A stretch of DNA of 64,000 nt from Cupriavidus oxalaticus. Lineage in GTDB: Bacteria; Pseudomonadota; Gammaproteobacteria; Burkholderiales; Burkholderiaceae. Positions within the stretch are counted from its first letter, which is position 1. Each line of letters starts with the position of its first letter. The stretch lies in the NCBI RefSeq assembly GCF_016894385.1, contig NZ_CP069812.1, positions 2,666,001 through 2,730,000 of the forward strand, given 5' to 3'. The notes beneath the pieces were generated by a model. The model was not told where the DNA came from. It worked only from the letters and a program-made list of their open reading frames with translations, and did not search any database. This document shows positions 28,718-48,545 of this stretch, piece by piece. The position numbers and the translations under genes are program-made.

Positions 28718-28780
28718 GGCTTTTTCCCGCCAGCACTCCCGTGATGGGAAAAAGCCGACATCTGCTCGCGCAAGTGTCGG
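28718..28780. promoter_or_regulatory. Two inverted repeats upstream of a sigma-54 promoter (putative activator sites)
   Basis: GGCTTTTTCCC (28718-28728) is inverted at 28746-28756, and the directly adjoining CCGACA (28755-28760) is inverted at 28775-28780. They lie 110-170 bp before the -24 box at 28891, the normal distance for enhancer sites bound by a sigma-54 activator. The first repeat could also form a hairpin. Confidence 0.5.
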
Positions 28781-28890
28781 CGCCAGGCCAACGCAAATTG
28801 CCGGCCGCTGCTGGCGCTACGCCGTGCCGCCACCCCGTGGGCCGCGCCGGACGGCGCTCCGGCGCCAGCCCGGCCAGCTGCCGCCGTCCG

Positions 28891-28906
28891 TGGCACGCGC
28901 CTTGCT
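28891..28906 (+). promoter_or_regulatory. Sigma-54 promoter of secreted peptide A
   Basis: TGGCACG-CGCC-TTGCT is a perfect match to the -24/-12 consensus, with GG and GC separated by exactly 10 bp. It lies 51 bp before the ATG at 28958. Confidence 0.85.
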
Positions 28907-28957
28907 CTGTTCCGGTACCGCACCGGCACCACGCCGCTACCACCCGGAGACAGAAAC

Positions 28958-29251
28958 ATGGCCACCCTAGCTATCCACGACCTTGCCAGCTGCCGCGAAC
29001 TTGCTTCCGACGCCATGGCCCGTGTACGCGGCGCCGGCGGGCAGTGGGTGTTCGGGTGGATCCGCCCGTTCGTGCCGTCGTCGCCGGTGCCGGCCGGCGC
29101 AGTGTTCAACTTTTACGAGATCAACTACAGCTTCTATGCTGATCAGATGAACAACCAGTTCCAGAACATCGATATCCGCAACAACGCGCCCAACGCCAAT
29201 ATCAATGTCCAGGGCGACCAGGGCGCGAGGAACGACGGTCGCCTGGTCTGA
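28958..29251 (+). CDS. Double-glycine-type leader peptide A (secreted microprotein precursor)
   Basis: The 97-residue protein has the same 26-residue leader as six others in this locus (MATLAIHDLASCRELASDAM then ARVRGA). It keeps Leu at -12, Met at -7 and Val at -4 relative to a Gly-Ala cleavage site at residues 25-26. The 71-residue mature part is rich in Asn, Gln and aromatic residues (NFYEINYSFYADQMNNQFQN, then IDIRNNAPNANINVQGDQG). Its core differs from the others, so it is a distinct product of the same export system. ACCCGGAGACAG provides the ribosome site. The PP2C gene follows 76 bp later, possibly on the same transcript. Confidence 0.85.
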   Translation: MATLAIHDLASCRELASDAMARVRGAGGQWVFGWIRPFVPSSPVPAGAVFNFYEINYSFYADQMNNQFQNIDIRNNAPNANINVQGDQGARNDGRLV

Positions 29252-29283
29252 GCGCCCGTCGTGGCATGCCCCGGCGCGACGGG

Positions 29284-29326
29284 GCACGAAGAAGGGGCGC
29301 GACGAAGGGGCGCAAAGAAGGGGCGC
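29284..29326 (+). repeat. Short tandem repeat at the PP2C ribosome binding site
   Basis: The unit GAAGGGGCGC recurs three times in the 44 bp just before ATG 29328 (GAAGAAGGGGCGCGAC, GAAGGGGCGCAAA, GAAGGGGCGCG). Each unit carries an AAGGGG that can act as a ribosome site. Confidence 0.7.
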
Positions 29327-29327
29327 G

Positions 29328-30125
29328 ATGCGCGAACGGAGGCTAGATTTGGGTTTCGATTCGCACTTCCAGTGGACCTCGGCGGCCTGCACCGACGTCG
29401 GCCGCGTACGCGAACGCAACGAGGATGCGTGCCTGGACCTGCCCGCGCAGCAGCTGTGGGCGGTCGCCGACGGCATGGGAGGACACGCCGTCGGCGACTT
29501 CGCCAGCCAGGCCGTGGTCCAGGCGCTGGCGGCGCTGCCGCCGCAGCCGCTGCTGGAAGACCGGATGGAGGCCACGCGCGCGGCGATGCAGGGCGTCAAC
29601 CTGGCGCTGGTCGACGAAGCCGCGCGGCTGGGGGTGCGCTGCATCGGCAGCACGGTGGTGGTGCTGCTGGCCGGCGACCGCCGCTGCGGCTGCCTGTGGG
29701 CCGGCGACAGCCGGCTGTACCGGCTGCGCGGCGGCGAGCTGGTGCGGCTCACGCGCGACCATAACCAGGTCGAGCGCCTGCTGGCGCGCGGCCTGATCAC
29801 GCCCGAGCAGGCGCGCCACCATCCCGCGCAGAACACCATCACGCGCGCCGTCGGCGCCGCGGCAACGCTGGCGCCGGAGCAGCTGCTGACCGAAGTTGCC
29901 GATGGCGACATCTTCCTGCTGTGCAGCGACGGCCTGAGCAATGAGGTCGACGACCCCGACATCGCCGCGGTGCTGGCGCAGCAGGATCCGCCGCAGGCCG
30001 CGCAGACGCTGCTGAAGATGGCGCTCGATGCCGGCGGGCGCGACAACATCTCGGTGGTGGTGATCCGCGCCACCGATCCCTACGGCTCGGACAAGACGCT
30101 GGTCAATCCCGAGCTGGACACCTGA
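29328..30125 (+). CDS. PP2C-family protein Ser/Thr phosphatase
   Basis: The 265-residue soluble protein has all PP2C metal-binding motifs: TDVGRVRERNEDA, WAVADGMGGHAVGDFAS, GSTVVVLL, LCSDGLSNEV and GGRDNISVVVIR. It should remove phosphate from Thr/Ser in the cytoplasm. In type VI secretion loci such a phosphatase (PppA) opposes the kinase PpkA; here the presumed partner is the kinase at 44742 and the FHA protein at 36778. I chose ATG 29328 (MRERRLDLGFD); the frame runs back to 29205 into the peptide A gene. It is convergent with the sigma-54 activator gene, 9 bp apart. Confidence 0.93.
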   Translation: MRERRLDLGFDSHFQWTSAACTDVGRVRERNEDACLDLPAQQLWAVADGMGGHAVGDFASQAVVQALAALPPQPLLEDRMEATRAAMQGVNLALVDEAARLGVRCIGSTVVVLLAGDRRCGCLWAGDSRLYRLRGGELVRLTRDHNQVERLLARGLITPEQARHHPAQNTITRAVGAAATLAPEQLLTEVADGDIFLLCSDGLSNEVDDPDIAAVLAQQDPPQAAQTLLKMALDAGGRDNISVVVIRATDPYGSDKTLVNPELDT

Positions 30126-30134
30126 GCGCCGCCC

Positions 30135-31481
30135 CTACCCTTTGCTTCCATCCGCCTGCCGGCTGGCACGGAAATCCTTGGAATGGATGCCGTGCTTCTT
30201 CAGCAGCATCTGCAGGTGCGAGCGGTTCATGTCGCAGCGCCGCGCCAGCTCGGCAACGGTGCCGCCGACCTCCTGCAGCCCGCGCTCCAGGAAAGCGCGC
30301 TCGGCCTCGTCGCTGGCCGCGCGCTTGGCCTCGCTGAGCGAGGCCGGCATGGCGATGTCCGCCCCTGCGGATCCCATGCTCCCCACCACCGCCAGCGCGG
30401 CTGGTCTGGGCCGGATGTCCTGCGGCAGCTGCGCCAGGTCGGCGGTGTCGCCGGCCAGGCATGACAGCCGGTACATCAGGTTGCGCAGCTCGCGGATATT
30501 GCCCGGGTAGTCGTAGTGCAGCAGGAAGTCGCGCAGCCGCGGCGTCAGCCTGACCGGCGCGCGCTTGAGCATGCTGGCGGCCTCGTCGCTGAAGTAGGAC
30601 ACCAGCAGCGGGATCTCGTCGTGCCGCTCGCGCAGCGCGGGCAGGCTGACATGGATCACGCTCAGGCGGTAGAACAGGTCCTCGCGGAAGGTGCCGGCCT
30701 CGCTCATCTTGCGCAGGTCCTTGTTGGTGGCCGCGACGATGCGCGCATCGACCGAGATGATCTCGTCCGAGCCCACGCGCTGGATCTCGTGCGCTTCCAG
30801 CACGCGCAGCAGCTTGACCTGCCCCGTCAGCGGCAGCTCGCCGATCTCGTCGAGGAAGATCGTCCCGGTATGCGCGCTTTCGAACTTGCCGCGCCGGTCG
30901 TTGCTGGCGCCGGTGAAGGCGCCCTTCTTGTGGCCGAACAGCTCGGATTCGAGCAGGCTGTCGGGGATCGCGCCGCAGTTGACAGAGATGAAGGGCTTGT
31001 CGGTGCGCGAACCGTTGGCGTGGATCACCTTGGCCATCAGCTCCTTGCCGGTGCCGCTCTCGCCGTCGATCAGCACCGGCAGGTCGGTCGGCGCGGCTTT
31101 CTCGGCAATTTCCAGGGCTTCCAGCAGCCTGGGGTTGTCGCCAAAGGTGCCCTCGAAGATAAAGCTGCGCTCCATCAGCGCCTGGCGCCGCTCGCGCGGC
31201 ATGCGTTCGACCTCCTGCTGCGGCGGCGCGCTTTCGCCGGCGCTTCCGGCCGCGGCTTCGGCGGATGACGCTGCCTGCACGAAGCGCTCCTTGTGCGACA
31301 GCCCCATGACCTCGTCGCGCAGCGTGGTGGCCTGCTTGAGCAGCTTCTCGATCTCCGGGCGGTCGAGGCGCGAGGCCCAGCGCAGCGTCGAGCGCAGGAT
31401 CTCGATCTTCTCGATCAGCCCGGCGAACGACACCGGCGAGGTGACCGAGGCGGGGGTGGCACCCTGGTTATATAGCTTCAT
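30135..31481 (-). CDS. Sigma-54-dependent transcriptional activator without receiver domain
   Basis: The protein has 448 residues. Residues 1-100 are a helical domain I do not recognise, with no phospho-receiver Asp. The AAA+ domain (about 107-340) has GESGTGKE (140-147), the sigma-54-contact loop GAFTGA (187-192) and FLDEIGEL. A Fis-type HTH lies at about 405-440 (GTVAELARRCDMNRSHLQML). It should activate the sigma-54 promoters at 28891, 42002 and 47126. Its start overlaps the stop of the ABC exporter as ATGA, so it is the last gene of the export operon. Confidence 0.93.
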   Translation of the reverse strand: MKLYNQGATPASVTSPVSFAGLIEKIEILRSTLRWASRLDRPEIEKLLKQATTLRDEVMGLSHKERFVQAASSAEAAAGSAGESAPPQQEVERMPRERRQALMERSFIFEGTFGDNPRLLEALEIAEKAAPTDLPVLIDGESGTGKELMAKVIHANGSRTDKPFISVNCGAIPDSLLESELFGHKKGAFTGASNDRRGKFESAHTGTIFLDEIGELPLTGQVKLLRVLEAHEIQRVGSDEIISVDARIVAATNKDLRKMSEAGTFREDLFYRLSVIHVSLPALRERHDEIPLLVSYFSDEAASMLKRAPVRLTPRLRDFLLHYDYPGNIRELRNLMYRLSCLAGDTADLAQLPQDIRPRPAALAVVGSMGSAGADIAMPASLSEAKRAASDEAERAFLERGLQEVGGTVAELARRCDMNRSHLQMLLKKHGIHSKDFRASRQADGSKG

Positions 31482-34400
31482 GCTGCGCTCAGTTGCTTCT
31501 GCACCAGTTGGTAATACATGCCCTTGCGTTCCAGCAGCTCTTCATGCCGGCCCTGCTCGACGATCGCGCCTTCATACAGCACCAGGATCTTGTCGGCCTG
31601 CATGATGGTGCTGAGCCGGTGCGCGATGATGACCGCGGTGCGCCCGCGCAGGATCTCCTGCATGTTCGCCAGGATATTGCTCTCGGATTGCGTGTCGAGC
31701 GCCGAGGTCGCCTCGTCGAACACCAGCAGCCGCGGGTCGTGGTACAGCGCGCGCGCGATGCACAGCCGCTGGATCTGCCCGCCCGACAACCCCATGCCGC
31801 GCTCGCCCACCACCTGCTCGTAGCCGAGCGGCAGCTTGCTGATAAAGGCATGGGCATCGGCCATGCGCGCCACTTCCTCGATGCGGCGCCGGTCGGGGCT
31901 GTCGTCGCCGCAGGCGATGTTCTCGGCGATGGTGCCCGAGAACAGCAGGTTGGACTGCATCACATAGCCAACCTGCGCGCGGTAGAACGCGGCGTCGATC
32001 ACGTTGAGGTCGTAGCCGTCCACCGACATCGAGCCCTCGGTCGGCTTGTAGAAGCCCACCAGCAACTTGGCCAGCGTGGTCTTGCCCGAACCGCTGCGCC
32101 CGACGATGGCGACCATCTCGCCCGGCTGGATGGTAAAGCTGATGTTCTCCAGCACGTAGGGCGTGTCCTCGCCGCCATAGCGGAAGTACAGGTCCTTCAT
32201 CACGATCTCGCCCTGCAGGTCGGGCAGCATCACGCGCGACAGCACATCCTGCGGCTTCTGCTCGGGCTCCAGGTCGAGCACGTCGCCGAGCCGTTCCATT
32301 GCCACGCCCGCATCGTTGAGCTGACCCCACAACGCGACCAGGCCCATCAGCGGCGCCAGCACGCTGCCCATGAAGGCATTGAAGGCGATCAGCTGGCCGA
32401 TGGTCAGCTCGCGCTCCAGCACCAGTGTCGCGCCCACCCACAGCACCGCGATGGTGGTGGCCGCGTTGAGCAGCTGGCTCACCAGGCCCACCAGGATATG
32501 GAAGGCCTGCGCCTTGTATTGCGATTCCAGCGCCTTGGTGTACTTGCGCTCCCAGCGCAGCCGCACCGGACGCTCGATGCCCATGCCCTTGACGGTTTCG
32601 GCGCCGCCCAGCGTTTCCATCAGGTAGGCCTTGGCATCGGTCGAGGTGGCAAAGACCTCGCGCGCATACGTCTTGATCCTGGGCGTCACCAGCACCGTCA
32701 GCGCCGCGATCGGGATCACGAAGGCGATCAGCAGCAGCGTCAGCTTGACGTTGTAGAGGAACATGATGGTGAAGTAGATAAACACCATCAGCAGGTTCAG
32801 CGCCGTGGTCACCGTCGACTCGGTCAGGAAGGCGCGGATGGTCTGGTTCTCCTGGAAGCGCGCGAAGATGTCGCCGGTCTTGCGCTTGGCGAAGAACGAC
32901 AGCGGCAGCGACAGCGTGTGCTTGAAGAAGTGCGACATCATGGCGAAATCCATGTTGCGCACCATGAAGTTGGCCAGGTACGCGCGGATCGTCGACATCA
33001 GCTGCGAGAACACGTTGGAGATGATCAGCCCCACGATCAGCAGGTGCAGCAGCCCCACGTTCTGGTGCACCACCACGCCGTCGAGGATGTTCTGGATGAT
33101 CAGCGGCGGCACCACGCCCAGCATCTGGATCACGAAGGTCGCCAGGAACAGGTGCGCCAGGATCTTCTTGTACGGCGCCAGGTAGCCGATGAAGCGCAGC
33201 CACGGCGAGCGCTGCACCGACAGCTGCGTCATGCTCTCGCCCGGCGCGAACAGCAGGCAGGTGCCGCTCCAGCCGCGCTCGAACTCTTCCGCGCTCATCT
33301 TGCGGAAGCCGATGGCGGGATCGGCCACCCACACCCAGCGCGACGAGATGCCGTACACCACCACGTAGTGGTAGCCCTCCCAGTGCACGATGAACGGCAG
33401 CTCGAAGCCCATCAGCGAGTCGCGCGTGCATTGCACCCCGCGCGTGGTGAAGCCCAGCGACTCGCCAGCGCGCGCCAGGCTGTCGAGCGTGGCGCCCTGC
33501 GTGGTCACGTTGGCCAGCTCGCGCAGCTTGCCCAGCGTCATCGGGATGCCGTAGTGCCGGCAGATCATCGCCAGGCAGGCCGCGCCGCAGTCCATTTCCT
33601 CGGCCTGCTCGACCAGGCCGAAGCGGCGGATCAGCTTCTCGCCCAGTTCCGGCTTCGAATGCAGGTCCAGCAGCACGGGGCGCTTGCGCCGCTCGGCCAG
33701 CTTCTTCTGCCGGTGCAGCTCGCGGTCGAGCGCGCGGATGCGTTCCTCCAGCACCTCGCGCAGGCGCGGGTTGCGCTCCAGGATCAGCTGCACGGTCTTC
33801 TCGGGAATGACCAGCAGGCGCACGTCGGTCTCGGCGACGGCCGCTGCCAGCTGCTCCTGCCGCATCACGCAGGCGCGCTCGCCGAAGATATCGCCCTGCC
33901 CGAGTGTCGCCAGGGGAAACTCGCTGCCCTCTTCGCTGCGCACCACGCGCACGGTGCCCTGGCGCACCACGTACAGGCGCCGGTCCTCGCGCCCGTCCTG
34001 CTTCAGGATTTCCTTGCCGGCGCTGACGCGCTTGACGCCCACGCTGCGCACGGCATCGGCCAGTTCCTGCTTGTCGAGCTTGCCGCGCAGGTCGAACAGC
34101 CGCGCGACAAAGCCGCCGGCCGAACTGATCGCGACATAGCTGGTGACAAAGGCCAGCGCGGCCGGGTTGCCGGCGACCACCGGCTCGGCCACGCTGCGCG
34201 GGATCATCAGCAGCTCGGTCTTGCCCGAGGCGCGCACCGACGACTCGTGCCGGTACTCGCGCAGCAGCGCGATATCGGCAAAGACCTCGCCGGCCTTGCG
34301 CACGCCCATGCTGATTTCCTTGCCGTGCTCTTCGTTGAACACGCGCACGGATCCCGACTTGACGATGAACAGGCCAGGCGCCGCATCACCGGCATTGCAG

Positions 34401-34609
34401 ACGGTATCGCCAAAGCCAAAGGTCAGCACCTGCGCGGCATCGGCCAGGCGCGCCAGCTCCTCCGGCGTCAGCACCGACAGGATTTCGACCCCGGCCAGGA
34501 AAGTGGCCAGCGCGGATCCACCCTCGGGCAGCCTCTCCGGCGGCGGCGGGGCAGCCGGGGCAGCAGCGGCGGCGGCTTCGCCAGACTCGCTAGCGGGCTT
34601 CGATGACAT
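31478..34609 (-). CDS. Peptidase-containing ABC exporter (C39) fused to two cNMP-binding-like domains
   Basis: The protein has 1043 residues. Two cyclic-nucleotide-binding-like domains lie at about 40-155 and 175-295. A C39 peptidase follows at about 325-455, with oxyanion Gln335, catalytic Cys341 in EMDCGAACLAMI, His414 in EGYHYVVVYG and Asp430 in VADP. Then come a six-helix membrane domain (about 470-770) and an ATPase with GRSGSGKT (837-844), LSGGQ (941-945) and LLVFDE (961-966). Such exporters cut double-Gly leaders and push the mature peptide across the inner membrane. The N-terminal cNMP-like domains are an unusual addition. The start overlaps the PPIase gene by 20 bp, and the stop overlaps the activator start. 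Confidence 0.95.
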   Translation of the reverse strand: MSSKPASESGEAAAAAAPAAPPPPERLPEGGSALATFLAGVEILSVLTPEELARLADAAQVLTFGFGDTVCNAGDAAPGLFIVKSGSVRVFNEEHGKEISMGVRKAGEVFADIALLREYRHESSVRASGKTELLMIPRSVAEPVVAGNPAALAFVTSYVAISSAGGFVARLFDLRGKLDKQELADAVRSVGVKRVSAGKEILKQDGREDRRLYVVRQGTVRVVRSEEGSEFPLATLGQGDIFGERACVMRQEQLAAAVAETDVRLLVIPEKTVQLILERNPRLREVLEERIRALDRELHRQKKLAERRKRPVLLDLHSKPELGEKLIRRFGLVEQAEEMDCGAACLAMICRHYGIPMTLGKLRELANVTTQGATLDSLARAGESLGFTTRGVQCTRDSLMGFELPFIVHWEGYHYVVVYGISSRWVWVADPAIGFRKMSAEEFERGWSGTCLLFAPGESMTQLSVQRSPWLRFIGYLAPYKKILAHLFLATFVIQMLGVVPPLIIQNILDGVVVHQNVGLLHLLIVGLIISNVFSQLMSTIRAYLANFMVRNMDFAMMSHFFKHTLSLPLSFFAKRKTGDIFARFQENQTIRAFLTESTVTTALNLLMVFIYFTIMFLYNVKLTLLLIAFVIPIAALTVLVTPRIKTYAREVFATSTDAKAYLMETLGGAETVKGMGIERPVRLRWERKYTKALESQYKAQAFHILVGLVSQLLNAATTIAVLWVGATLVLERELTIGQLIAFNAFMGSVLAPLMGLVALWGQLNDAGVAMERLGDVLDLEPEQKPQDVLSRVMLPDLQGEIVMKDLYFRYGGEDTPYVLENISFTIQPGEMVAIVGRSGSGKTTLAKLLVGFYKPTEGSMSVDGYDLNVIDAAFYRAQVGYVMQSNLLFSGTIAENIACGDDSPDRRRIEEVARMADAHAFISKLPLGYEQVVGERGMGLSGGQIQRLCIARALYHDPRLLVFDEATSALDTQSESNILANMQEILRGRTAVIIAHRLSTIMQADKILVLYEGAIVEQGRHEELLERKGMYYQLVQKQLSAA

Positions 34610-35342
34610 GTTCCTGCGCCCTGCCCATCAGCCAGTCTTCGCGCAGCAGGCGCCGCACTTCCACCGCGACCTCGCTGTCGAGGGTGGCGGGATGCTTGGC
34701 GCGCACCAGGAAGACTTCGAAGAAAGAGCGGTCCGGCGCGGGGAACGGCCCCAGCAGGTCGCCCGGCTCCGCGTTGAACACCTTGGCCTCGATATCGGTC
34801 TTGAGCGAGCCGCGCAGCACCTTGCCGATCTCGCCGCCGTGCTCGCGCGTGTCGGCGATCGAATGCTCGCGCGCCATCTCGGCGAACGCCTCGGGATCGT
34901 CCTGCAGGTAAGAGATCAGCTCCTTGGCCTTGCCCTCGCTGTCGACCACGATATGGCTGACCTCGATGCTGTCGAAGCGCGGCGAGTTCAGCGCAAAGTA
35001 CTCCTGCACCGCGGCGTCGCTGCAGACCTGCTCCATCATCCGCTCCTGGTACAGGTTGTCGGTGATGAACGCCTCGAACTCGTCGAGGCTGACGTTGAGC
35101 GCGTCGAGATAGTGGTTCATGTCGGCGGCGCGGTGCAGGCCCTGCACGCGGCGGAACTGGTCGGCGCGCTCCTGGATTTCCTCGGGCGTGACCACCATGC
35201 CCTGCCGCTTCGCGGCGTGCACGGTCAGCTTGTCGCGCACCATCTGCTCGACCAGCCCTTCGAACTGCCCGGTCAGCTTGAGCAGCCGCACGAATTCCTC
35301 GACGCCGAGCACCTCGTCGTCGATACGGACAATGCCAGTCAT
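34590..35342 (-). CDS. Parvulin-type peptidyl-prolyl isomerase (SurA/PpiC-like) without signal peptide
   Basis: The protein has 250 residues. A SurA_N-like helical part (about 1-120) precedes a PpiC/rotamase domain (about 125-230) with VSHIVVDSEGKAKELISYL, AREHSIADTREHGGEIGKVL and GDLLGPFPAPDRSFFEVFLV. Parvulins of secretion operons help pass or fold exported peptides. There is no signal peptide, so as read it is cytoplasmic and could hold precursors for the exporter. ATG 35342 (MTGIVRIDDEV) is preceded by CAAGGAGCCTAGAC; the longer frame to 36626 is only the shadow of the HlyD gene. Confidence 0.88.
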   Translation of the reverse strand: MTGIVRIDDEVLGVEEFVRLLKLTGQFEGLVEQMVRDKLTVHAAKRQGMVVTPEEIQERADQFRRVQGLHRAADMNHYLDALNVSLDEFEAFITDNLYQERMMEQVCSDAAVQEYFALNSPRFDSIEVSHIVVDSEGKAKELISYLQDDPEAFAEMAREHSIADTREHGGEIGKVLRGSLKTDIEAKVFNAEPGDLLGPFPAPDRSFFEVFLVRAKHPATLDSEVAVEVRRLLREDWLMGRAQEHVIEAR

Positions 35343-35401: not shown

Positions 35402-36781
35402 TCAGCCAGCCACCTCGCGGAAGGGGTCGAGACCCAGGTCGATCAGGCGGCGCTCGCGCACCACGATCTCCGCCGTGGCGGTCATGCCATAGCGCAACGG
35501 ATACTTGTTGTCGGCCACGGTGTAGTAGTCGCGCGCCAGGCGCACCCTGCCCTCGTAGACCGGCTGCTTGTCGGGGCCCGGCTTGGTCGCGGGCGAGATG
35601 AATTCCAGCGTGCCTTCGATGATCCCGTAGCGCTGGTACGGGAACGCGCTGAACTTGAGCTTGACCAGCAGCCCCTCGCGCAGGAAGGCGCGGTCGCGCT
35701 CGGCAATGACGATCTTGACCACCGGGCGCGCATCCTTGGGCGCGATCCCGCCCAGCGGCGTGTTGGCCTGCACCTTGTCGCCGCGCTGGGTGGAGGTGAC
35801 ATCGGTGATCACGCCCGACACCGGCGCCAGGATCAGCAGGAAATTGTCCTTGTCGATATTCTCGAAGCGGATGCGCGCGGCCGCATCGGCCACCAGCCGC
35901 GCGGTCTGGACCTGCAGGCGCAGCTTGTCCTCGGTGCTGGCGATCTCGCGCAGCGCGGCGTCGTACTGCACGCGCAGCCCGGCCAGGTCCTGCCCGCTGC
36001 TTTCGAGCAGCGCACTGGCCTGGGTCATCTCGCGCGACAGGCGGGCATCGAGTTCGCTCAGCCGCGACTGCGCCACGCGCAGGTTGTTCTCGGCGTCCTG
36101 CGCCGCGGCGCGCTTGGCATCGAGCTGCGACTGCGACACGCCGCCGCCGCCGGGCAGCGCCAGCAGGCGCGCATAGCGGTCCTGCTCCTGGCGCGCGAAC
36201 TCGCGCGCGCGCCGGGCGTTTTCCAGGTTGCTGCGCGCCTCCTGCAGCTGCGCGCGCTGTTCCTCGGCCAGCCGCGTGGTGCCTTCGGCCAGGCGATTCT
36301 CGTGCTGGCGCGTGGCCACGTCGATCTGCTGCTTGAGCGCGTTGGCGCGGCGTTCCATCAGCGCCTTCTTCTCCGGGAACTGCTTCCAGTCGCGCTCGGA
36401 ATCCTCCAGCTTGAGCTGCGCCTCCAGCGCATTGGCGGCGGCCTCGATCGCCCCGCGCGCGTTCAGCCGCGCCAGCACGTCGTCCTTGGACACCGGCTGG
36501 CCTTCGGCGACATACAGGTCGGCCAGCTCGCCGTCGACCGGCGCATAGAAGCGCCGCACTTCCGATTCGGGCGCCAGCGTGCCTTGCGCGGTGACGATGA
36601 CGTCGGCGTGGCCGACGAAGGACCACACCAGCCCGCAGATCACCAGCGCAAACGTGGTGACGATGGTCAGCATGCCCAGCCGCGACGGTTCCGCGGTCAG
36701 CAGGCCGATGCCTTCGGCGCTGTGGTCTTCCAGCGCTTCGGACAGCGGCTTCAGGCCGGCCTGGCGGGAATCGTCCTTCAT
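35402..36781 (-). CDS. HlyD-family periplasmic adaptor protein
   Basis: The 459-residue protein has one N-terminal membrane helix (about 38-58, LTIVTTFALVICGLVWSFVG). A barrel-sandwich domain follows (VTAQGTLAPESEVRRFYAPV), then long coiled-coil hairpins (about 120-290, Ala/Glu/Arg-rich) and a beta-barrel C-terminus (VKLKFSAFPYQRYGIIEGTL is the typical T1SS adaptor motif). It connects the ABC exporter to the outer membrane factor. Its ATG overlaps the stop of the FHA gene (ATGA at 36781-36778), indicating tight coupling of signalling and export genes. Confidence 0.95.
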   Translation of the reverse strand: MKDDSRQAGLKPLSEALEDHSAEGIGLLTAEPSRLGMLTIVTTFALVICGLVWSFVGHADVIVTAQGTLAPESEVRRFYAPVDGELADLYVAEGQPVSKDDVLARLNARGAIEAAANALEAQLKLEDSERDWKQFPEKKALMERRANALKQQIDVATRQHENRLAEGTTRLAEEQRAQLQEARSNLENARRAREFARQEQDRYARLLALPGGGGVSQSQLDAKRAAAQDAENNLRVAQSRLSELDARLSREMTQASALLESSGQDLAGLRVQYDAALREIASTEDKLRLQVQTARLVADAAARIRFENIDKDNFLLILAPVSGVITDVTSTQRGDKVQANTPLGGIAPKDARPVVKIVIAERDRAFLREGLLVKLKFSAFPYQRYGIIEGTLEFISPATKPGPDKQPVYEGRVRLARDYYTVADNKYPLRYGMTATAEIVVRERRLIDLGLDPFREVAG

Positions 36782-41099: not shown

Positions 41100-41287
41100 G
41101 ACCCGGGGAGCGGCAGTAAGGGATACGGGCACGGTGCGATCCTGCGTGCGTGCGCGGCGGGCGGGACGCACTGGCGTGCCGTGGCCACGGAGGTCTGTCT
41201 GTATTGTGGTGCGCGCGGGCGCGCGCTCCAACCCCGATCTGCATCAGGCGAAATCCGATGCAGTCGGCCATGGATGGGCACATGAAG

Positions 41288-41315
41288 CGCGCCGCGGGGA
41301 CACCCTCGCGGCGCG
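41288..41315 (-). terminator. Hairpin after the peptide B/C operon
   Basis: On the minus strand GCGCCGCGAGGG and CCCCGCGGCGC form a strong stem about 25 bp after the peptide B stop. There is no T-run, so it may be an attenuating or protective hairpin rather than a true terminator. Confidence 0.45.
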
Positions 41316-41335
41316 GCGCCATCTCAACAAGCTTC

Positions 41336-41605
41336 TCAACGATAGATATTGTTGCTGGCGTTCTGGTTGGTATCCACATGCGAACGGACATGGTCAAGGA
41401 AGGCCGAGCCGTTGCCATTCAGGTTGGTGACGGTCTGCATCTGCGCGATTTCCTGCGTGGCGGTGATGCTGCTGTCGAGCTTGAGCTTGATCGGGGCGTA
41501 GACCGCCGCGAAGGGCAGGTAGGCGAGACCGCCGCGCACGGCTTGCATGCGCTTGCTGTCGAGGGTTTCGGTGGCGGCCAGGTCCTTGATGGTCAGCGTG
41601 GTCAT
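41336..41605 (-). CDS. Double-glycine leader peptide B (secreted microprotein precursor)
   Basis: The 89-residue precursor has a leader of exactly 26 residues (MTTLTIKDLAATETLDSKRM, QAVRGG) with Gly-Gly at 25-26. The 63-residue mature part starts LAYLPFAAVYAPIKLKLDSS, contains QEIAQMQTVTNLNGNGSAFL and ends VDTNQNASNNIYR. It is a close paralogue of peptides C, D and E. It lies second in a two-gene operon behind the sigma-54 promoter at 42002. Exported and cleaved by the C39 exporter, by inference from the leader. Confidence 0.88.
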   Translation of the reverse strand: MTTLTIKDLAATETLDSKRMQAVRGGLAYLPFAAVYAPIKLKLDSSITATQEIAQMQTVTNLNGNGSAFLDHVRSHVDTNQNASNNIYR

Positions 41606-41655: not shown

Positions 41656-41925
41656 TCAGCCGTAGATGTTGTTGGTGGCGTTCTGGTTGGTGTGGACGTT
41701 CGACTTGACGTGGTCCAGGAAGGCGGAGCCGTTGCCGTTCATGTTGGTGACGGTCTGCATTTGCGCGATTTCCTGCGTGGCGGTGATGCTCTTGTCGATC
41801 GACAGCTTCAGCGGCATGTAGGCGGCGACGAACGGGACGTAGGCGAAGCCGCCGCGGACGGCGTGCATGCGCTTCTGGTCCAGGGTGTCGATGGTGGTCA
41901 GGTCGTTGATGGTCAGCGTGGTCAT
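41656..41925 (-). CDS. Double-glycine leader peptide C (secreted microprotein precursor)
   Basis: The 89-residue precursor has the leader MTTLTINDLTTIDTLDQKRM, HAVRGG (Gly-Gly at 25-26). Its 63-residue mature part starts FAYVPFVAAYMPLKLSIDKS, includes QEIAQMQTVTNMNGNGSAFL and ends NVHTNQNATNNIYG. It is the first gene after the sigma-54 promoter at 42002-42017 and is followed 50 bp later by peptide [15 protein letters not shown] is the ribosome site. No Cys is present, so disulfide-stapled bacteriocin structure is excluded. Confidence 0.88.
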   Translation of the reverse strand: MTTLTINDLTTIDTLDQKRMHAVRGGFAYVPFVAAYMPLKLSIDKSITATQEIAQMQTVTNMNGNGSAFLDHVKSNVHTNQNATNNIYG

Positions 41926-42001: not shown

Positions 42002-42017
42002 CGCAGGGAGCGTGCCA
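42002..42017 (-). promoter_or_regulatory. Sigma-54 promoter of peptides C and B
   Basis: On the minus strand TGGCACG-CTCC-CTGCG, with GG and GC 10 bp apart. The sequence from -24 through about 55 bp into the transcript (to GATGCTCGAATCCA) is identical to that of the peptide D promoter at 47126. Confidence 0.88.
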
Positions 42018-42066: not shown

Positions 42067-42198
42067 CTTTTTTGTTCGGCCTTGCCCTGCAGGCCTCAGG
42101 TCGATGCTGCTTGTGCAGGGCGGGAGTGGTGGGCTCGGCCCAACACGTCGAGGATGAGTGTTGGGTGTGCCGTGACAGCGGGGCCGGTGTTCCGGAGG

Positions 42199-42338: not shown

Positions 42339-42767
42339 TTACTTTACGTAGATTGTGATGCGCTTTGAATACACGGGTGGATTTGTGGGGATGTGCTTGT
42401 CATCCCCCATGATCAGCTGCAACGTATGCTTCCCGGGCGGCAGCTCCAGCATGGTCTCCGTCTCGCCCGCGCCGAAATGCAGGTGATTCCGGTCGTTCGG
42501 GATCTCCTTGTCCATCGGCGGCAACTCGACATCGATCAGCAAATGGTGATGACCCGTGTTGGGATACTTCACATCCTTGGGCGCCACCCCCATGTTCCGC
42601 AATCCAAACCATACCTTGAACGGCTTGCCGGCAGGCATCACCTGCCCGTCATTGGGCCAGCCGATATAGAGATAGGCATTCGGCGGCGCCGGCGTAGGTC
42701 CGCCCTGGGCCGCGACCGATACCAGCACGCTGGCAGCCAGCGCAGCGGCAACAAGTAGTCTGGACAT
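42339..42767 (-). CDS. DUF4399-family periplasmic protein, copy 1
   Basis: The 142-residue precursor has a signal peptide (MSRLLVAAALAASVLVSVAA). Its mature domain carries the DUF4399 signature: [62 protein letters not shown] and [19 protein letters not shown]. The His cluster (GHHH and HLHFG) suggests metal or ligand binding. The function is unknown. It is about 70 percent identical to the copy at 42818, with 50 bp between them, a recent tandem duplication. AGGGGAGAGGG precedes the start. Confidence 0.88.
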   Translation of the reverse strand: MSRLLVAAALAASVLVSVAAQGGPTPAPPNAYLYIGWPNDGQVMPAGKPFKVWFGLRNMGVAPKDVKYPNTGHHHLLIDVELPPMDKEIPNDRNHLHFGAGETETMLELPPGKHTLQLIMGDDKHIPTNPPVYSKRITIYVK

Positions 42768-42817: not shown

Positions 42818-43243
42818 CTAGCGCACGGTGATCGTGATTTTCTTCGAATAGATCGGCGGCTCGAACGGTATGTGCTTGGCGTCGCCCATCAGCAGTTGCA
42901 GGGTGTGCTTGCCCGGCGGCAGTTCGATGCGCGCATCGGTCTCGCCCGCGCCGAAGTGCAGGTGGTTCCGGTCGTTCGGGATTTCCTTGTCCAGCGGCGG
43001 CAGCTCGACGTCGATCAACAGGTGGTGGTGGCCGCAGCGCGGCAGCTCGATGCCCTTGGGGCACACGCCCATGTTGCGCAGCCCCATGCGGATCCAGAAC
43101 TTGCCGCCGGTGATCACCGTGCCGTCGTGCGGCCAGATGATGTAGGCCTCGGCATTGGGTGGAGCGGCTGTCGACAGGGACAGCGATGGCGCGGCGGCGA
43201 ACACGGCAGCCGCCGCCAGGCGGAACAGGAATCGTCTGGACAT
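42818..43243 (-). CDS. DUF4399-family periplasmic protein, copy 2
   Basis: The 141-residue precursor has a signal peptide ([20 protein letters not shown]) and the same domain as copy 1 ([54 protein letters not shown]). It differs by a Cys pair ([16 protein letters not shown]) that copy 1 lacks. It is first of the two on the minus strand and divergent from the FGE-like gene. I chose ATG 43243, since it begins the signal peptide; the frame reaches 43279. Confidence 0.88.
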
Positions 43244-43523: not shown

Positions 43524-44729
43524 ATGTGGCGCAATCTACCAGTCGTGCATCTGGCCGCGATGGCCGGGATTCTCGCCTCCACAGCCCTTTCCATGGGTGC
43601 GGCGTCTGCTGCGTCCGCGGACCCGCTGCTGCTGGCCGGCATCATGCCGAAGAATACCGACGAGCAGTACGAGCTCAGCTTCTGGGAATCGATCAAGAAC
43701 AGCAACTACGCGAGCGACTACGAGGCATACCTGAAGCAGTATCCCAACGGGCGCTTCGCGGTGCTGGCCAAGGCCAGGCTCGAGCGGCTGCGTGCGTCGG
43801 CACCGGCGCCGGCACCGAAGGCACAGCAGCAGCCCGCGCCGCCACCCCGCTCCGGCACTTCCTCGGGCGGGCAGGTTTCGCGCGCGCCGGCTGCGTCGGC
43901 ACCTGCTGCCCGTTCGGCGCCCGCTCCTGCTCCGGCTCCGCCCTCGGCGGCAGCGCCCAAGGCCGCCACCGCTGCCGGCGGCGCGGTCAGTGTTGCGCCA
44001 CCGCCAATCCGCACCGGCGAAATTCGCGATTGCCCTGCCTGTCCGGTGCTGATCGCACTGCCCGGCGGCAGCTTCACCATGGGCAGCAACACCAGCGATC
44101 CGGCGGAAAGGCCGCCGCACCAGGTCACCATCAGCCAGCCGTTCGCGATCGGCCGCTTCGAAGTCACGGTCGAGCAGTGGAGTGCCTGTGTCGACGCCGG
44201 CGGCTGCCAGCGCGTGCCGACCATTGCTGAAAGCGCCAAGAACTCACCGATGCGCGATGTCAGCTGGGATGATGCGCAACAGTACGTGGAGTGGCTGAGC
44301 AAGACCACCGGCAAGGCCTACCGCCTGCCGACCGAGGCGGAATGGGAATACGCGGCGCGCGGCGGCACCGCCAGCGCGTTCTGGTGGGGCGACCAGATGC
44401 GCAAGGGCAACGCCAACTGCAAGGAATGCGGCGATCCGTGGAGCGGCGATGCGCCGGCGCCGGTGGGCTCGTTCGCCGCCAACCCGTGGGGCCTGCATGA
44501 CGTCAACGGCAGCGTGTGGGAATGGGTCGCCGACTGCTGGCACAGCTCGTACAAGGGCGCGCCCGTGGACGGGCGCGCATGGAACGAGAACGCCTGCGGC
44601 GCGCGCGTGATACGTGGCGGCTCCTGGCGCGAAGGGGTCAGCTACATGGTGTCCTCCACGCGCTTCAAGTACAGCCCGAGCGTGCGGCAGTCGCAGAACG
44701 GCTTCCGCGTCGCGCGCGACATGAAATAG
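43524..44729 (+). CDS. Secreted formylglycine-generating-enzyme-like (SUMF1/FGE-sulfatase) protein
   Basis: The protein has 401 residues. A signal peptide (about 1-34, [20 protein letters not shown]) is followed by a segment found in caspase/FGE-associated proteins ([20 protein letters not shown] then [18 protein letters not shown]). A Pro/Ala linker (about 95-160) leads to an FGE-sulfatase domain (about 170-400): [54 protein letters not shown] and [10 protein letters not shown]. Many such domains are binding folds without oxidase activity; related proteins occur in type VI secretion phosphorylation loci. It probably acts in the periplasm. Location beside the kinase suggests a signalling or export role. 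Confidence 0.88.
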
Positions 44730-44741
44730 CGCGTGGCGCCG

Positions 44742-46793
44742 TCAGCGCGCACGCGTCGAAATCTGCACTACGTCCGCGCTGATGCGGTCGCTGCCATAGG
44801 TGCGCGCCATCTGCGCCAGCGGCCTTTCCAGCGCGCGCAGGTAATCCTGCTGCCCTTCCACCTCGGTGCGGCGCCCTTCGAACAGCGGCACCGGCGTCGT
44901 CAGCAGTACCACCAGCTCCGTGCCGAAGGGAGCCGACACGACCCAGGCGCCGCCTTCTCCGATCGTCGCCTGGTGGCCTGCGGGGGCCTGGTGGGCCGAC
45001 ACCCGGCTGCTTGGCACCATGTGCGCGACCTTGCCGTCGGCCGCGAAGTAGTCGACGTAGACATACGACTCCTGCGCCGGCGTACGCAGCTCCAGCACCA
45101 GCGGCGAGCCATCGGTCAGCTGCGAGCTCTTGCCGCGCAGCCGCAATGACGAGGCGCTGCCGCCTTCGCGATTGCCGGACCAGTATGGCGCGACCAGCTT
45201 GGCGACATCGCACTTGTCGGCGGCAAAGGGCTGGGTCTCGACGGTCACGCCCTTCACGCCCGGCAACGCCGCGAGCTGCTCGCGCAGGCGCGCCTGCCCC
45301 ACGCTTTCGGCCAGGAAACCGCGCACGCGCAGCGTATGGGCTTTCTCACTGGCGCTGAGCAGCGAACACGGCACGGCGGCGAGCGCCCTGGTGACATCGG
45401 CCATGGAGAACACCGCGGGGCGCGCCGGGGCAGGCGTTACCGGCGTTGCCGCCGGCACCGGCGCGGATGGCGTGGCAGGCGCTTCCGCACGTGTCTCGGC
45501 GGGCGGCGCGGCGGGCTGCCGCTGCACATGCCAGGCGTAGTAGCCGATTGCCGACACCCCGGCAAGCACGGCGGCGACACCGCCGATCATCACCGGCGAG
45601 CGCTGCGACGGCGTGGTCATCGGCACCGCGCTCATGCCGTGCAGGAAGCGTGCGACGGTTGGCGTGCGCGTGGCGCGATCCAGCGACAATGCCTCGCGCA
45701 TGGTCTTCCACTGCGTGCGGCTGAGCTGCGGCGGCTGCGGCGGCTTGACGCCCGCTTCGCGCGCCTGGTTGGCCGACATGCGCTGGTACGGGTGCTTGCC
45801 CGTGATCAGTTCGTAGGTCACGCAGGCCAGCGCGTAGATGTCGTCGCGCGGGTCGGGCTCGCGATGCTCGAACATCTCGGGGCTCGCATACGCCGGCGTC
45901 ATGCCGCCCAGCGAACCGGGGTCGAACACGGTCCGGTCCGACTCGTCGGCCGGCGGCAGGAAGCCGCGCGCGATGCCGAAGTCGATCACCTTGACCTCGC
46001 CGCTGTCGGTCAGGAACACGTTGGCGGGCTTGAAGTCGCAATGCACGAAGCCGCGCTCGTGCGCATAGGCCAGTGCGTTGCCCATGCCGTTGATGATGGG
46101 CATGGCGCGCGCCATCGGCATGCCGCTGAAGCCGGGCGCCTTCAGCACATGGTTGAGCGAATTGCCCGACAGGTATTCCATGGTCAGGAAGACCACCGGC
46201 CCGTCGCGGTCGAAGTCGTAAACGGTGACGATATTCCGGTGCGCCAGCGTCTGTGCCTTGCGCGCCTCGCGCTGCAGCGCGATCAGAGACTTGGGGTGGC
46301 CGCTGAACTGCAGGTTCAGCACCTTGATGGCGATATAGGGCTTGCGGTCAGACGCTTCCAGCTTGCGCAGGTCGAGCGCCTTGTACACCGTGCCCATGCC
46401 GCCCACGCCCAGGCACTCTTCCAGCACGAAGCGGCCATTCAGCGTATCGCCCACGCCCTTGGCATGCGCCGCCGGCGGCAGCGTGCCGGCCTCGGGCGAG
46501 GTCGCGTAGAGCGAGCCTGTCTGCGGCCCGCTGGCCATGCGCGTGGCTTCGGTGACGCCCTCGTACCGGGTGGCGCTGCGGCGCTCGATGCGCCGCATCA
46601 CTTCGGCATAGACCGCGGGCGGAAACGGGAAGCGCGTGTTTTCCTCGATCACCACGCGCGCCGCCTGGCTGGGCGAGGTGGGATCCTGGGCCAGCGCCGT
46701 CTCGAACGACGCAACGAATTCGTCGTCGGACAGACCGCCGTTCTGGAACTTGCGGATCAGGTCTTTGAGACTGGTCACGGCTCGCCCTGACAT
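44742..46793 (-). CDS. Membrane Ser/Thr protein kinase with periplasmic DUF4384-like domain
   Basis: The protein has 683 residues. The kinase domain spans about 122-385: glycine loop GVGGMGTVY, Lys157 in AIKV, catalytic HCDFKPAN (251-258, Cys in place of the usual Arg), DFG (271-273) and activation loop with DESDRTVF (283-290). A single helix lies at about 401-421, then a Pro/Ala linker and a periplasmic part with a BON-like segment and a DUF4384-like domain (SYVYVDYFAADGKVAHMVPS). It resembles PpkA-type kinases of threonine-phosphorylation pathways. Convergent with the FGE-like gene (12 bp gap), opposite to the peptide D operon. The likely partners are the PP2C and FHA proteins. Confidence 0.93.
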   Translation of the reverse strand: MSGRAVTSLKDLIRKFQNGGLSDDEFVASFETALAQDPTSPSQAARVVIEENTRFPFPPAVYAEVMRRIERRSATRYEGVTEATRMASGPQTGSLYATSPEAGTLPPAAHAKGVGDTLNGRFVLEECLGVGGMGTVYKALDLRKLEASDRKPYIAIKVLNLQFSGHPKSLIALQREARKAQTLAHRNIVTVYDFDRDGPVVFLTMEYLSGNSLNHVLKAPGFSGMPMARAMPIINGMGNALAYAHERGFVHCDFKPANVFLTDSGEVKVIDFGIARGFLPPADESDRTVFDPGSLGGMTPAYASPEMFEHREPDPRDDIYALACVTYELITGKHPYQRMSANQAREAGVKPPQPPQLSRTQWKTMREALSLDRATRTPTVARFLHGMSAVPMTTPSQRSPVMIGGVAAVLAGVSAIGYYAWHVQRQPAAPPAETRAEAPATPSAPVPAATPVTPAPARPAVFSMADVTRALAAVPCSLLSASEKAHTLRVRGFLAESVGQARLREQLAALPGVKGVTVETQPFAADKCDVAKLVAPYWSGNREGGSASSLRLRGKSSQLTDGSPLVLELRTPAQESYVYVDYFAADGKVAHMVPSSRVSAHQAPAGHQATIGEGGAWVVSAPFGTELVVLLTTPVPLFEGRRTEVEGQQDYLRALERPLAQMARTYGSDRISADVVQISTRAR

Positions 46794-46970: not shown

Positions 46971-47009
46971 TGCCGGGCCAACACCGGCGCCACAGGTGTT
47001 GGCCCGGCA
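46971..47009. promoter_or_regulatory. Perfect 15 bp inverted repeat in the kinase/peptide divergent gap
   Basis: TGCCGGGCCAACACC (46971-46985) is inverted at 46995-47009 around a 9 bp loop. It lies between divergent promoters, so it is not placed as a gene-end terminator. It may be an operator or a hairpin in the kinase 5' leader. Confidence 0.5.
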
Positions 47010-47076: not shown

Positions 47077-47090
47077 CCCTTGTTTTCAGG
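47077..47090 (+). promoter_or_regulatory. Conserved upstream box CCCTTGTTTTCAGG
   Basis: This matches the box at 42053-42066 at 13 of 14 positions and sits the same 36 bp before its sigma-54 promoter. Confidence 0.6.
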
Positions 47091-47125
47091 TATTTGCGCG
47101 CGGCGCGCGCCGCTGGCCGCAGCGC

Positions 47126-47141
47126 TGGCACGCTCCCTGCG
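47126..47141 (+). promoter_or_regulatory. Sigma-54 promoter of peptides D, E and probably F
   Basis: TGGCACG-CTCC-CTGCG with the exact GG-N10-GC spacing; identical to the minus-strand promoter at 42002-42017 and the first ~55 transcribed bases. It is 80 bp before the start of peptide D. Confidence 0.88.
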
Positions 47142-47220
47142 ATATCCCAACCGAGCGCGACACCAACCCGATGCTCGAATCCAGACCCAAACGCAATACC
47201 TTCCGCCATTGGAGACCATC

Positions 47221-47490
47221 ATGACCACGCTGACCATCAAGGACCTGTCCTCCGCCGAAACCCTGGACCGCAAGGGCATGCAAGCCGTGCGCGGCGGCAT
47301 GACCTACATGCCGTTCGCCGCGGTGTACAGCCCGCTGAAGCTGTCGTTCGACAGCAGCATCACCGCCGTGCAGGAAATCGCGCAGATGCAGACCGTCACC
47401 AACATGAACGGCAATGGCTCGGCCTTCCTGGATCACGTCAAGTCCAACGTGCACACCAACCAAAACGCCACCAACAACATCTCGCGCTAA
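47221..47490 (+). CDS. Double-glycine leader peptide D (secreted microprotein precursor)
   Basis: The 89-residue precursor has the leader MTTLTIKDLSSAETLDRKGM, QAVRGG. Its mature part starts MTYMPFAAVYSPLKLSFDSS, includes QEIAQMQTVTNMNGNGSAFL and ends NVHTNQNATNNISR. It is the first gene behind the sigma-54 promoter at 47126. The opposite orientation and matching promoter show that the B/C and D/E pairs arose by an inverted duplication. Confidence 0.88.
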   Translation: MTTLTIKDLSSAETLDRKGMQAVRGGMTYMPFAAVYSPLKLSFDSSITAVQEIAQMQTVTNMNGNGSAFLDHVKSNVHTNQNATNNISR

Positions 47491-47533
47491 GCCCCAACGC
47501 TGCCAACGCATCCACCGAGACCCGGAGACCATC

Positions 47534-47803
47534 ATGACCACGCTGACCATCAAAGACCTGTCCGCCGCCGAAACCCTCGACAGCAAGCGCATGCACGCCG
47601 TGCGCGGCGGCCTCGCCTACCTGCCCTTCGCGGCCGTCTATGCCCCGATCAAGCTCAAGCTCGACAGCAGCATCGACGCCACGCAGTCGATCGCGCAGAT
47701 GCAGTCCGTCACCAACCTGAACGGCAACGGTTCGGCCTTCCTGGATCACGTCAAGTCCAACGTGCATACCAACCAGAACGCCACCAACAACATCTACGGC
47801 TGA
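47534..47803 (+). CDS. Double-glycine leader peptide E (secreted microprotein precursor)
   Basis: The 89-residue precursor has the leader MTTLTIKDLSAAETLDSKRM, HAVRGG. Its mature part starts LAYLPFAAVYAPIKLKLDSS, includes QSIAQMQSVTNLNGNGSAFL and ends NVHTNQNATNNIYG. It is nearest to peptide B in the core and follows D by 43 bp with CCCGGAGACC as ribosome site, so it belongs to the same operon. Confidence 0.88.
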   Translation: MTTLTIKDLSAAETLDSKRMHAVRGGLAYLPFAAVYAPIKLKLDSSIDATQSIAQMQSVTNLNGNGSAFLDHVKSNVHTNQNATNNIYG

Positions 47804-47894
47804 TCCAGCCACGGCCGCGGCGCGCGGTGGACCTATGCAACCCCCGCGCCAGCCGCCCCGGAACACTCATCGCATTGCCTGAAGGAGCACCATC

Positions 47895-48167
47895 ATGTCA
47901 TCGATCATCGTTCGCGACCTCGCCGTCAGCAAAGACCTCGACCGTGCCTCGCTGCGCGCCGTGCGCGGCGGCAATTCCTGGCTGACCCGCGGTATCGGCA
48001 ACGTCGGCCCGCTGGCCAACGTCACCGTCAACGTCAACCAGAACATCGCCCAGCTGCAGAGCATCAATGTCAACACGCTCAACAACAGCTTCGTCGGCCA
48101 CGGTGTCGGCCCGGTGAAGGTCGACGTCAACCCGTCGCAATGGGCCGGCAACTTCGCCGCGGTCTGA
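47895..48167 (+). CDS. Double-glycine leader peptide F (divergent core)
   Basis: The 90-residue precursor has the leader MSSIIVRDLAVSKDLDRASL, RAVRGG (Gly-Gly at 25-26, Leu at -7). The 64-residue mature part is different from B-E but shares the QxIAQxQS motif: GPLANVTVNVNQNIAQLQSI then NVNTLNNSFVGHGVGPVKVD. Alternating Val/Ile and Asn suggests beta strands. It lies 91 bp after peptide E, with GAAGGAGCACC as ribosome site. Confidence 0.86.
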   Translation: MSSIIVRDLAVSKDLDRASLRAVRGGNSWLTRGIGNVGPLANVTVNVNQNIAQLQSINVNTLNNSFVGHGVGPVKVDVNPSQWAGNFAAV

Positions 48168-48196
48168 GCACCTGGGTATTACGGGGAGCGGCGGCA

Positions 48197-48221
48197 GGCC
48201 CGCGGCAAAGCACCGCGGGCC
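48197..48221 (+). terminator. Strong hairpin between peptides F and G
   Basis: GGCCCGCGG (48197-48205) pairs with CCGCGGGCC (48213-48221) around a 7 bp loop. There is no T-run, but a sigma-70-like -10 box TATACT follows at 48228-48233, so transcription of peptide G may start anew here. Confidence 0.5.
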
Positions 48222-48293
48222 GACGCCTATACTGAAGCGGTTCCGCGGCCGCATGGCCGTGGCGCCGCGTAACCGGAAACAGCGGAGACAGCC

Positions 48294-48545
48294 ATGGCAG
48301 TAATCGTCATCAAGGATTTGTCCGACAGCATGGATCTCGACCGGCAGGCCATGACCGCCATCCTGGGCGGCGGGCGCACTGCCGGCGGCCGGGGATGGCA
48401 TGGGCTGCGGCGCAGCGGACCGGCGCGCATCGTCGATTACCCGGGCGGCCTGCCCGGCAATCGCCATGTGATGCCACGGGAGGTCCCGCTGGGCCGGCTG
48501 CCCCGAAAACCGGCAGGGCCGGCAGACAAGGGCACGGGCGGCTAA
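48294..48545 (+). CDS. Double-glycine leader peptide G (Gly/Arg/Pro-rich core)
   Basis: The 83-residue precursor has a leader of the same length and pattern (MAVIVIKDLSDSMDLDRQAM, TAILGG). The 57-residue mature part is wholly different: basic, Gly/Arg/Pro-rich (GRTAGGRGWHGLRRSGPARI, then VDYPGGLPGNRHVMPREVP). It has no Asn/Gln repeats and could be antimicrobial or bind nucleic acid or cell wall. GGAGACAGCC precedes the ATG. Confidence 0.78.
   Translation: MAVIVIKDLSDSMDLDRQAMTAILGGGRTAGGRGWHGLRRSGPARIVDYPGGLPGNRHVMPREVPLGRLPRKPAGPADKGTGG

Follow-up and report, generated by a model that had tools for sequence, protein, structure and literature searches.

What is a peptide exporter doing in the company of a Ser/Thr kinase, a phosphatase and an FHA protein? 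This question is raised by positions 28718-48545 of the Cupriavidus oxalaticus window (the whole 64-kb stretch analysed here, part of a two-contig, 6.69-Mb genome), a locus whose closest named relatives lie in Cupriavidus. Based on a list of open reading frames (ORFs) and on Pfam and NCBIfam profile matches, all the parts that a preliminary description of this DNA had named are found within these coordinates. We consider it probable that they form one dedicated type I system, wherein a C39/ABC exporter cuts and exports asparagine/glutamine-rich (N/Q-rich) peptides, with a sigma-54 activator of its own to switch it on and the kinase, phosphatase and FHA protein to tune it. This reading is based on the leaders, the intact C39 peptidase, the adaptor and channel, the sigma-54 sites and a near-strict co-inheritance, as seen in the sequence.

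What is the cargo? The candidates are small precursors with a common leader, four of them termed b-type:

28958-29251, plus strand: pepA precursor; leader ending in RGAGG, core with QWVFGW and an N-rich tail
41336-41605, minus strand: pepB, b-type precursor (leader pattern, leader profile)
41656-41925, minus strand: pepC, b-type precursor (leader pattern, leader profile)
47221-47490, plus strand: pepD, b-type precursor (leader pattern, leader profile)
47534-47803, plus strand: pepE, b-type precursor (leader pattern, leader profile, protein search)
47895-48167, plus strand: pepF precursor with a NVNVNQNIAQLQ core (leader pattern, leader profile)
48294-48545, plus strand: pepG precursor; common leader, core basic and G/R/P-rich

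Seven leader-sharing microproteins had been proposed, and a search of all six frames of the 64 kb with the leader pattern returned exactly seven precursor ORFs. A leader profile built on 14 b-type sequences and run against the whole genome to E = 10 recovered the same seven and nothing else, with pepG matched through its leader alone (E 0.0037). The leader is common to all and the cores are not, these comprising four near-identical b-type sequences, a pepA type, a pepF type and a pepG type. Five of the seven peptides were tried against NCBIfam, with no match above cut-off. To widen the view, the leader pattern was applied to 121 sequences from partly overlapping genomes, namely the window, 40 regions picked by FHA matches and 80 named loci picked by exporter patterns (the best 80 of 260 relatives), each set being biased to its own bait. 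This yielded 288 precursors, 257 of them distinct; 12 of the 121 sequences gave none, and some of these have a pepA-like blastp match, so the pattern misses some. The pepA family was matched in 73 of the 80 exporter loci, and a protein search with pepE returned 59 proteins (the window's own included), whose named organisms are Cupriavidus or Pandoraea terrae.

The cores are polar, N/Q-rich and of low charge, with a mean length of 64-69 residues and an Asn content of 13-15%, against 2.6% in seven large window proteins. The pepA-type and many other cores appear to have one common element with differing flanks, because the motif Q-x3-Q-x-Q-x4-8-N occurs in 176 of 257 cores (61 of 72 pepA-type, 115 of 185 others); 200 shuffles that ignore relatedness gave it in 1.5 cores on average and in at most 5.

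How could such peptides leave the cell? Between the peptide groups, and on the opposite strand to pepA, lies a run of genes for export:

30135-31481, minus strand: sigma-54 activator; AAA+ domain with GAFTGA, first 110 residues without a Pfam domain
31478-34609, minus strand: ABC exporter; two cNMP-binding domains, a C39 peptidase, ABC membrane and ATPase domains
34590-35342, minus strand: PPIC/SurA-type peptidyl-prolyl isomerase (PPIase); likely start 35342 by comparison of relatives
35402-36781, minus strand: HlyD-type periplasmic adaptor (profile match)
36778-39420, minus strand: double-FHA protein; two FHA domains, one membrane helix, all-helical C-terminal half
39672-41099, minus strand: NodT-type outer-membrane factor (the channel); lipoprotein-like signal (LAGC), likely start 41099 by comparison of relatives

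By profile matches, the type I set of ABC exporter, HlyD adaptor and outer-membrane factor is complete, and the double-glycine leader peptides (leader pattern, profile) are present in the exporter's own locus. The C39 catalytic residues C341, H414 and D430 are intact and invariant across nine aligned exporters, and the outer-membrane factor matches TIGR01845 at 315.6 bits (cut-off 210.05). The exporter itself stays below the curated cut-offs for TIGR03796 (569.1 of 853.3 bits) and TIGR01193 (494.7 of 523.85), and the PPIase is a distant relative of TIGR04500 (86 of 180 bits). Across the 80 exporter loci, the channel was matched in 70 and the HlyD adaptor in 72. The genes for the FHA protein, HlyD, PPIase, exporter and activator look like a single transcript because they overlap, by four bases between the HlyD and FHA genes and between the exporter and activator genes, and by 20 bases between the PPIase and exporter genes. 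In the same direction, pepC, pepB and the channel gene precede this run. Between pepB and the channel gene, at 41230-41335, a hairpin of 106 nt (z = -2.99; equally stable in 1 of 200 shuffles) may reduce expression of the machinery relative to that of the peptides.

What turns the locus on? Ahead of each peptide group stand a putative promoter and inverted repeats:

28755-28792, plus strand: enhancer-like dyads upstream of pepA; CCGACA-N14-TGTCGG at 28755-28780, overlapping GTCGG-N7-CCAAC at 28776-28792
28891-28905, plus strand: sigma-54 -24/-12 site TGGCACGCGCCTTGC, 67 nt before pepA
42003-42017, minus strand: sigma-54 site TGGCACGCTCCCTGC, 92 nt before pepC
42140-42164, minus strand: enhancer-like dyad CCAACA-N13-TGTTGG upstream of the pepC sigma-54 site
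46978-47002, plus strand: enhancer-like dyad CCAACA-N13-TGTTGG upstream of the pepD sigma-54 site
47126-47140, plus strand: sigma-54 site TGGCACGCTCCCTGC, 95 nt before pepD

A search of both strands of the 64 kb returned three copies of the strict pattern TGGCA[CT]N5[CT]TGC, each preceding the first peptide gene in a group, and three of the palindrome CC[AG]ACA-N8..16-TGT[TC]GG, one upstream of each sigma-54 site. A second dyad form, GT[TC]GG-N6..8-CC[AG]AC, is found at the pepA promoter and in two intragenic places. One of the promoters heads the entire run of pepC, pepB, channel, FHA, HlyD, PPIase, exporter and activator genes. In the window and the 80 loci (81 sequences, 83 strict sites), 68 of the 174 precursors having at least 150 nt of upstream DNA bear a strict site within 300 nt, where about 1.2 would be expected from density; the 68 all come from the 136 precursors that lack a close same-strand precursor upstream, and none from the 38 followers. 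Counted 40-180 nt upstream of 83 promoters defined by a slightly relaxed pattern, the second dyad form marks 55 of the 56 pepA promoters and 8 of the remaining 27, and the first form 10 of 56 and 14 of 27, respectively. Together, the -24/-12 sites, the upstream dyads and a GAFTGA activator encoded in the operon have the layout of a sigma-54 regulon that depends on enhancers, and the sigma-54 control claimed in the preliminary description is thereby well supported on sequence grounds. The locus activator presumably binds the dyads. A wider regulon was considered and rejected: TGTTGG combined with the sigma-54 pattern occurs at six places in the genome, two of them here, and 3-kb loci around the other four contain no leader peptide by the leader pattern.

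An activator gene within the exporter operon permits feedback, and quorum-sensing peptides are among the cargo of C39 exporters (ComA, in the excerpts available), as would suit secreted signals, or pheromones, sensed by other cells. We regard this as improbable, given that no receptor kinase is among the identified genes of the locus and that the cores, at 64-69 residues on average, are N-rich and come as several paralogues.

Do the exporter and the signalling genes belong together? A fairer test than the bait-selected sets is offered by one fixed set of 299 genomes from the same family, with only the two or three top candidates of each genome scored (thresholds 1e-30 for the FHA protein, 1e-200 for the exporter, 1e-90 for the kinase). 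The exporter was found in 104, the FHA protein in 106 and the kinase in 106, and all 104 exporter genomes carry all three (phi 0.985). The two remaining genomes (G260 and G333), both fragmented assemblies, have FHA and kinase matches and no exporter match at E <= 1e-200. Further exporter genomes gave the same picture, with the kinase in 16 of 16 (12 as a full-length single match, four in two pieces) and the FHA protein in 10 of 10; in one (G700) the kinase pieces lie far apart and the FHA protein is likewise in two places. Gene order is alike in FHA-selected regions and exporter-selected loci. Of 40 genomes sampled from its own genus, 31 have the system and 9 lack it; presence is similarly mixed in g33, g34 and g35. 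As a side observation, FHA copies in G195, G303, G260 and others have in-frame stops or are split, by decay or sequencing error, and the kinase copy of G260 is also interrupted by stops.

Two unrelated modules might merely sit side by side, and the distances offer some argument for this: kinase and exporter are within 25 kb in 72 genomes, separated by 100 kb to 1 Mb of the same contig in 11 of the 104, and on different contigs of a draft assembly in 21 more. The kinase, however, is retained in 104 of 104 exporter genomes even when separated. Separation without loss therefore favours functional coupling and leaves chance neighbourhood very improbable. Independent distribution, named beforehand as the observation that would speak against a single system, was not seen.

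What, then, could the signalling genes do? Apart from the double-FHA protein, they are:

29328-30125, plus strand: PP2C Ser/Thr phosphatase; likely start 29328 by comparison of relatives, ORF open from 29205
43524-44729, plus strand: formylglycine-generating-enzyme-like (FGE-like) protein; signal-like N-terminus, 401 residues, no Cys beyond residue 358
44742-46793, minus strand: Ser/Thr kinase; K157, D253, DFG at 271, hydrophobic helix near 399 followed by DUF4384

Kinase, PP2C, FHA and FGE-like protein are thus all present, the last predicted to be periplasmic from its signal-like N-terminus. Formylglycine-generating enzymes have their active-site cysteines near the C-terminus; here, no Cys follows residue 358 of 401. 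A fold search with the FHA protein gave a list dominated by FHA domains, the helical C-terminal half being barely probed. According to the available excerpts of PMC10482370, threonine phosphorylation in type VI secretion likewise involves a Ser/Thr kinase, a phosphatase, an FHA protein and a periplasmic kinase activator, and sigma-54 control is known there, too. The module might accordingly serve a type VI system of the same cell. The claim that no type VI structural gene is present held in part: for VipA/TssB, the sole marker tested, the window has none, and the genome's single match is on the other contig (C1:91487). At least four genomes with the system are without a VipA match (G010, G026, G074, G265), and 73 of 140 VipA-positive genomes are without the system. 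Because no VipA is nearby and such genomes exist, the module does not appear to be part of a type VI machine, and service to one is very unlikely.

What the peptides do is the harder question. Bacteriocins are classically exported as double-glycine peptides through C39 exporters, and a bacteriocin role (class II microcin-like or CDZ-like), with immunity provided by an unlinked gene or by a pair of neighbouring genes, would suit the multiple paralogous precursors per locus. The pair in question is:

42339-42767, minus strand: DUF4399 protein a; N-terminus hydrophobic, signal-like
42818-43243, minus strand: DUF4399 protein b; N-terminus hydrophobic, signal-like

The phospho-module also resembles the timer of type VI antibacterial firing (PMC10482370, available excerpts), and in the excerpts available of PMC5380434 the type I-exported small CDZ proteins of Caulobacter form insoluble aggregates on the producer surface. 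A weapon is the main rival to a matrix role because CDZ shows that type I-exported aggregates can kill. We nevertheless judge it unlikely. When 34 small unannotated ORFs were compared with 20 Cupriavidus regions, none was matched in more than eight, and those matched did not, by eye, resemble a membrane immunity protein; DUF4399 genes, which stay candidates for immunity, are found in 65 of the 80 loci, though 10-kb flanks may cut some off. The cores are polar and N/Q-rich, GxxxGxxxG occurs in just 3 of 257 of them, unlike in CDZ, and the system is conserved across genera. Because the cores are N/Q-rich and of low charge and no convincing immunity gene was found, matrix or surface material is by analogy the likeliest peptide role, with about even odds within the overall explanation.

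How old is this association? Among the best 80 of 260 relatives, loci were found in Cupriavidus, Paraburkholderia, Caballeronia, Trinickia, Noviherbaspirillum, Herbaspirillum and Aromatoleum, in records called Burkholderia or Ralstonia, and in an Oxalobacteraceae metagenome-assembled genome (MAG); a plasmid collection added the FHA protein in four records (three Caballeronia, one Burkholderia stagnalis). Carriers of the locus include Paraburkholderia xenovorans LB400 (L159) and strains of C. necator or C. alkaliphilus (L114-L116). Order-wide, 33 of 399 genomes pass the threshold, with a full-length exporter in three and alignments from residue 312 or later in the others. Among 370 genomes of the class, which in GTDB is Gammaproteobacteria, nine besides our own have a full-length exporter, and exporter identity across these relatives in other orders is 34-73%. 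Three of them, at 64-73%, encode PPIase, HlyD, FHA protein and channel, and two of these the activator; in one (L249), a sigma-54-like site lies 71 nt upstream of each of two leader peptides. These peptides are nearly identical and lie on the minus strand at 3422 and 14650, 11 kb apart, flanking the exporter genes. Of the six relatives at 34-37%, four have activator, PPIase and HlyD, four the FHA protein and one PP2C. Activator, PPIase, HlyD and cNMP-C39 exporter are an old association, because they stand together in distant relatives of other orders.

Some relatives carry further proteins. Loci of Aromatoleum and the Oxalobacteraceae MAG have a second FHA protein (ORFs in L138, at 1422-3356, and in L152, L188 and L190), that of L138 with GAF and HD_5 domains. 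A Caspase-domain (C14) and Sel1 protein adjoins the channel gene of a related locus (L248, 12479-15178). Beside PP2C and a distant exporter-locus relative lies a RimK-like ATP-grasp protein (L252, 3612-4601), which suggests that some relatives modify their own peptides.

Together, this suggests the following course of events for the single type I system that we favour. The activator would bind the dyads and turn on both peptides and machinery; the exporter would cleave after the double glycine and send the cores out by way of HlyD and the NodT-type channel, with the PPIase aiding folding or holding the cores unfolded. The membrane kinase with its outer half, the exported FGE-like protein, PP2C and the double-FHA scaffold might set when and where the exporter works, the role that PpkA, PppA and Fha have in type VI secretion. 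In the most uncertain step, the N/Q-rich cores would become surface or matrix material, as EbfG does in Synechococcus.

Several points weigh against this reading. Secretion, cleavage, phosphorylation and peptide function are steps that we infer. The strict sigma-54 site is missing from half of the first-in-group precursors (68 of 136), a sigma-54 matrix, partly circular in that it was trained on strict matches, places 57 of 62 pepA-type and 72 of 110 other precursors above the 99th percentile of background, and the second dyad form also lies inside genes, at 39767 and 48003. As for the peptides, pepG and those of L249 lack an N-rich core, the shuffle control for the core motif disregards relatedness, none of the seven exceeds a Pfam cut-off, the EbfG hotspot motif is in 0 of 257 cores, and an AlphaFold2 model of a b-type precursor was uninformative (pLDDT 53, leader helix only). 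The genomes are related, hence 104 are not 104 independent cases. Finally, kinase, FGE-like protein and DUF4399 were unmatched in the nine other-order stretches, each 12-20 kb long; the kinase and the N-rich peptides may have joined the system later, or may be encoded beyond the DNA read.

One could go further and propose a new secretion class: a type I exporter gated post-translationally, by a threonine-phosphorylation relay and by the exporter's nucleotide-binding domains, and laying N/Q-rich fibres. Here, the relay of membrane kinase, PP2C, double-FHA scaffold and FGE-like sensor would fire on an envelope or surface signal. We offer this tentatively and think it rather less likely than its opposite; the class would be old and wide because the core set occurs in four of the six distant other-order relatives. 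If the favoured type I reading is confirmed, type I secretion, too, is gated by the kind of phospho-relay familiar from type VI secretion, and N-rich exported peptides, a conserved family, become testable as matrix, weapon or signal. The sigma-54 and enhancer sites indicate a route of switching the system on. About a third of the sampled family genomes (104 of 299) keep the locus, yet no description of it or of its combination of parts was found among titles and abstract starts of the open literature, a search that leaves most subscription journals outside; the impression that no described system joins all these parts agrees with this. The parts are of known kinds, and their combination appears new to the literature thus searched. 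The available part of PMC13174018 has no mention of Burkholderia, Paraburkholderia or Cupriavidus.

In the surroundings, a tRNA-Arg gene (anticodon cct) lies at window positions 28268-28342, about 600 nt ahead of the locus, and a transposase-like ORF, IS110-like by inspection and of lower third-position GC, at 19990-21066. Elsewhere in the genome, L002 (C1:49568-49975 and flanks) encodes a second C39 peptidase, FapD/FilB-like and below cut-offs, flanked by proteins that are rich in G and contain N/Q stretches and a KLD[DE][IM]RGG motif; this is possibly a Fap-like amyloid locus.

How does the system compare to known ones? Fap amyloid subunits are N/Q-rich, and FapD is a C39 peptidase by its NCBIfam name; Fap thus also ties a C39 peptidase to amyloid subunits, FapD being stand-alone, whereas C39 is here fused to the ABC exporter. 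The NHLP and bacteriocin exporters (TIGR03796, TIGR01193) likewise pair a C39-ABC exporter with HlyD; here, there are two extra cNMP domains, the leader is unmatched and the cut-offs are not reached. CDZ, in the excerpts available, offers type I-exported small proteins as a counterpart to the peptides, with glycine zippers and CdzI immunity there, compared to GxxxGxxxG in 3 of 257 cores and no convincing immunity gene among 34 small ORFs here. The type VI threonine pathway (PpkA, PppA, Fha and TagR, the last presumably FGE-like) has, as far as the accessible passages go, kinase, phosphatase, FHA protein and periplasmic activator as here, while the present FHA protein differs from type VI Fha in its two FHA domains, membrane helix and helical C-terminal half, and the module is tied to a type I peptide exporter instead of type VI machinery. 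In Synechococcus elongatus, according to excerpts of PMC9981879 and PMC4997328, EbfG1-3 form amyloid, EbfG4 is on the surface and in the matrix, and efficient secretion of these double-glycine peptides requires a C39 protein. The cores are unrelated to EbfG by motif (0 of 257), and the passages on EbfG/PteB mention neither a kinase/phosphatase/FHA set nor sigma-54 control; what that system and ours have in common is a paralogous set of small double-glycine precursors together with a C39 protein.

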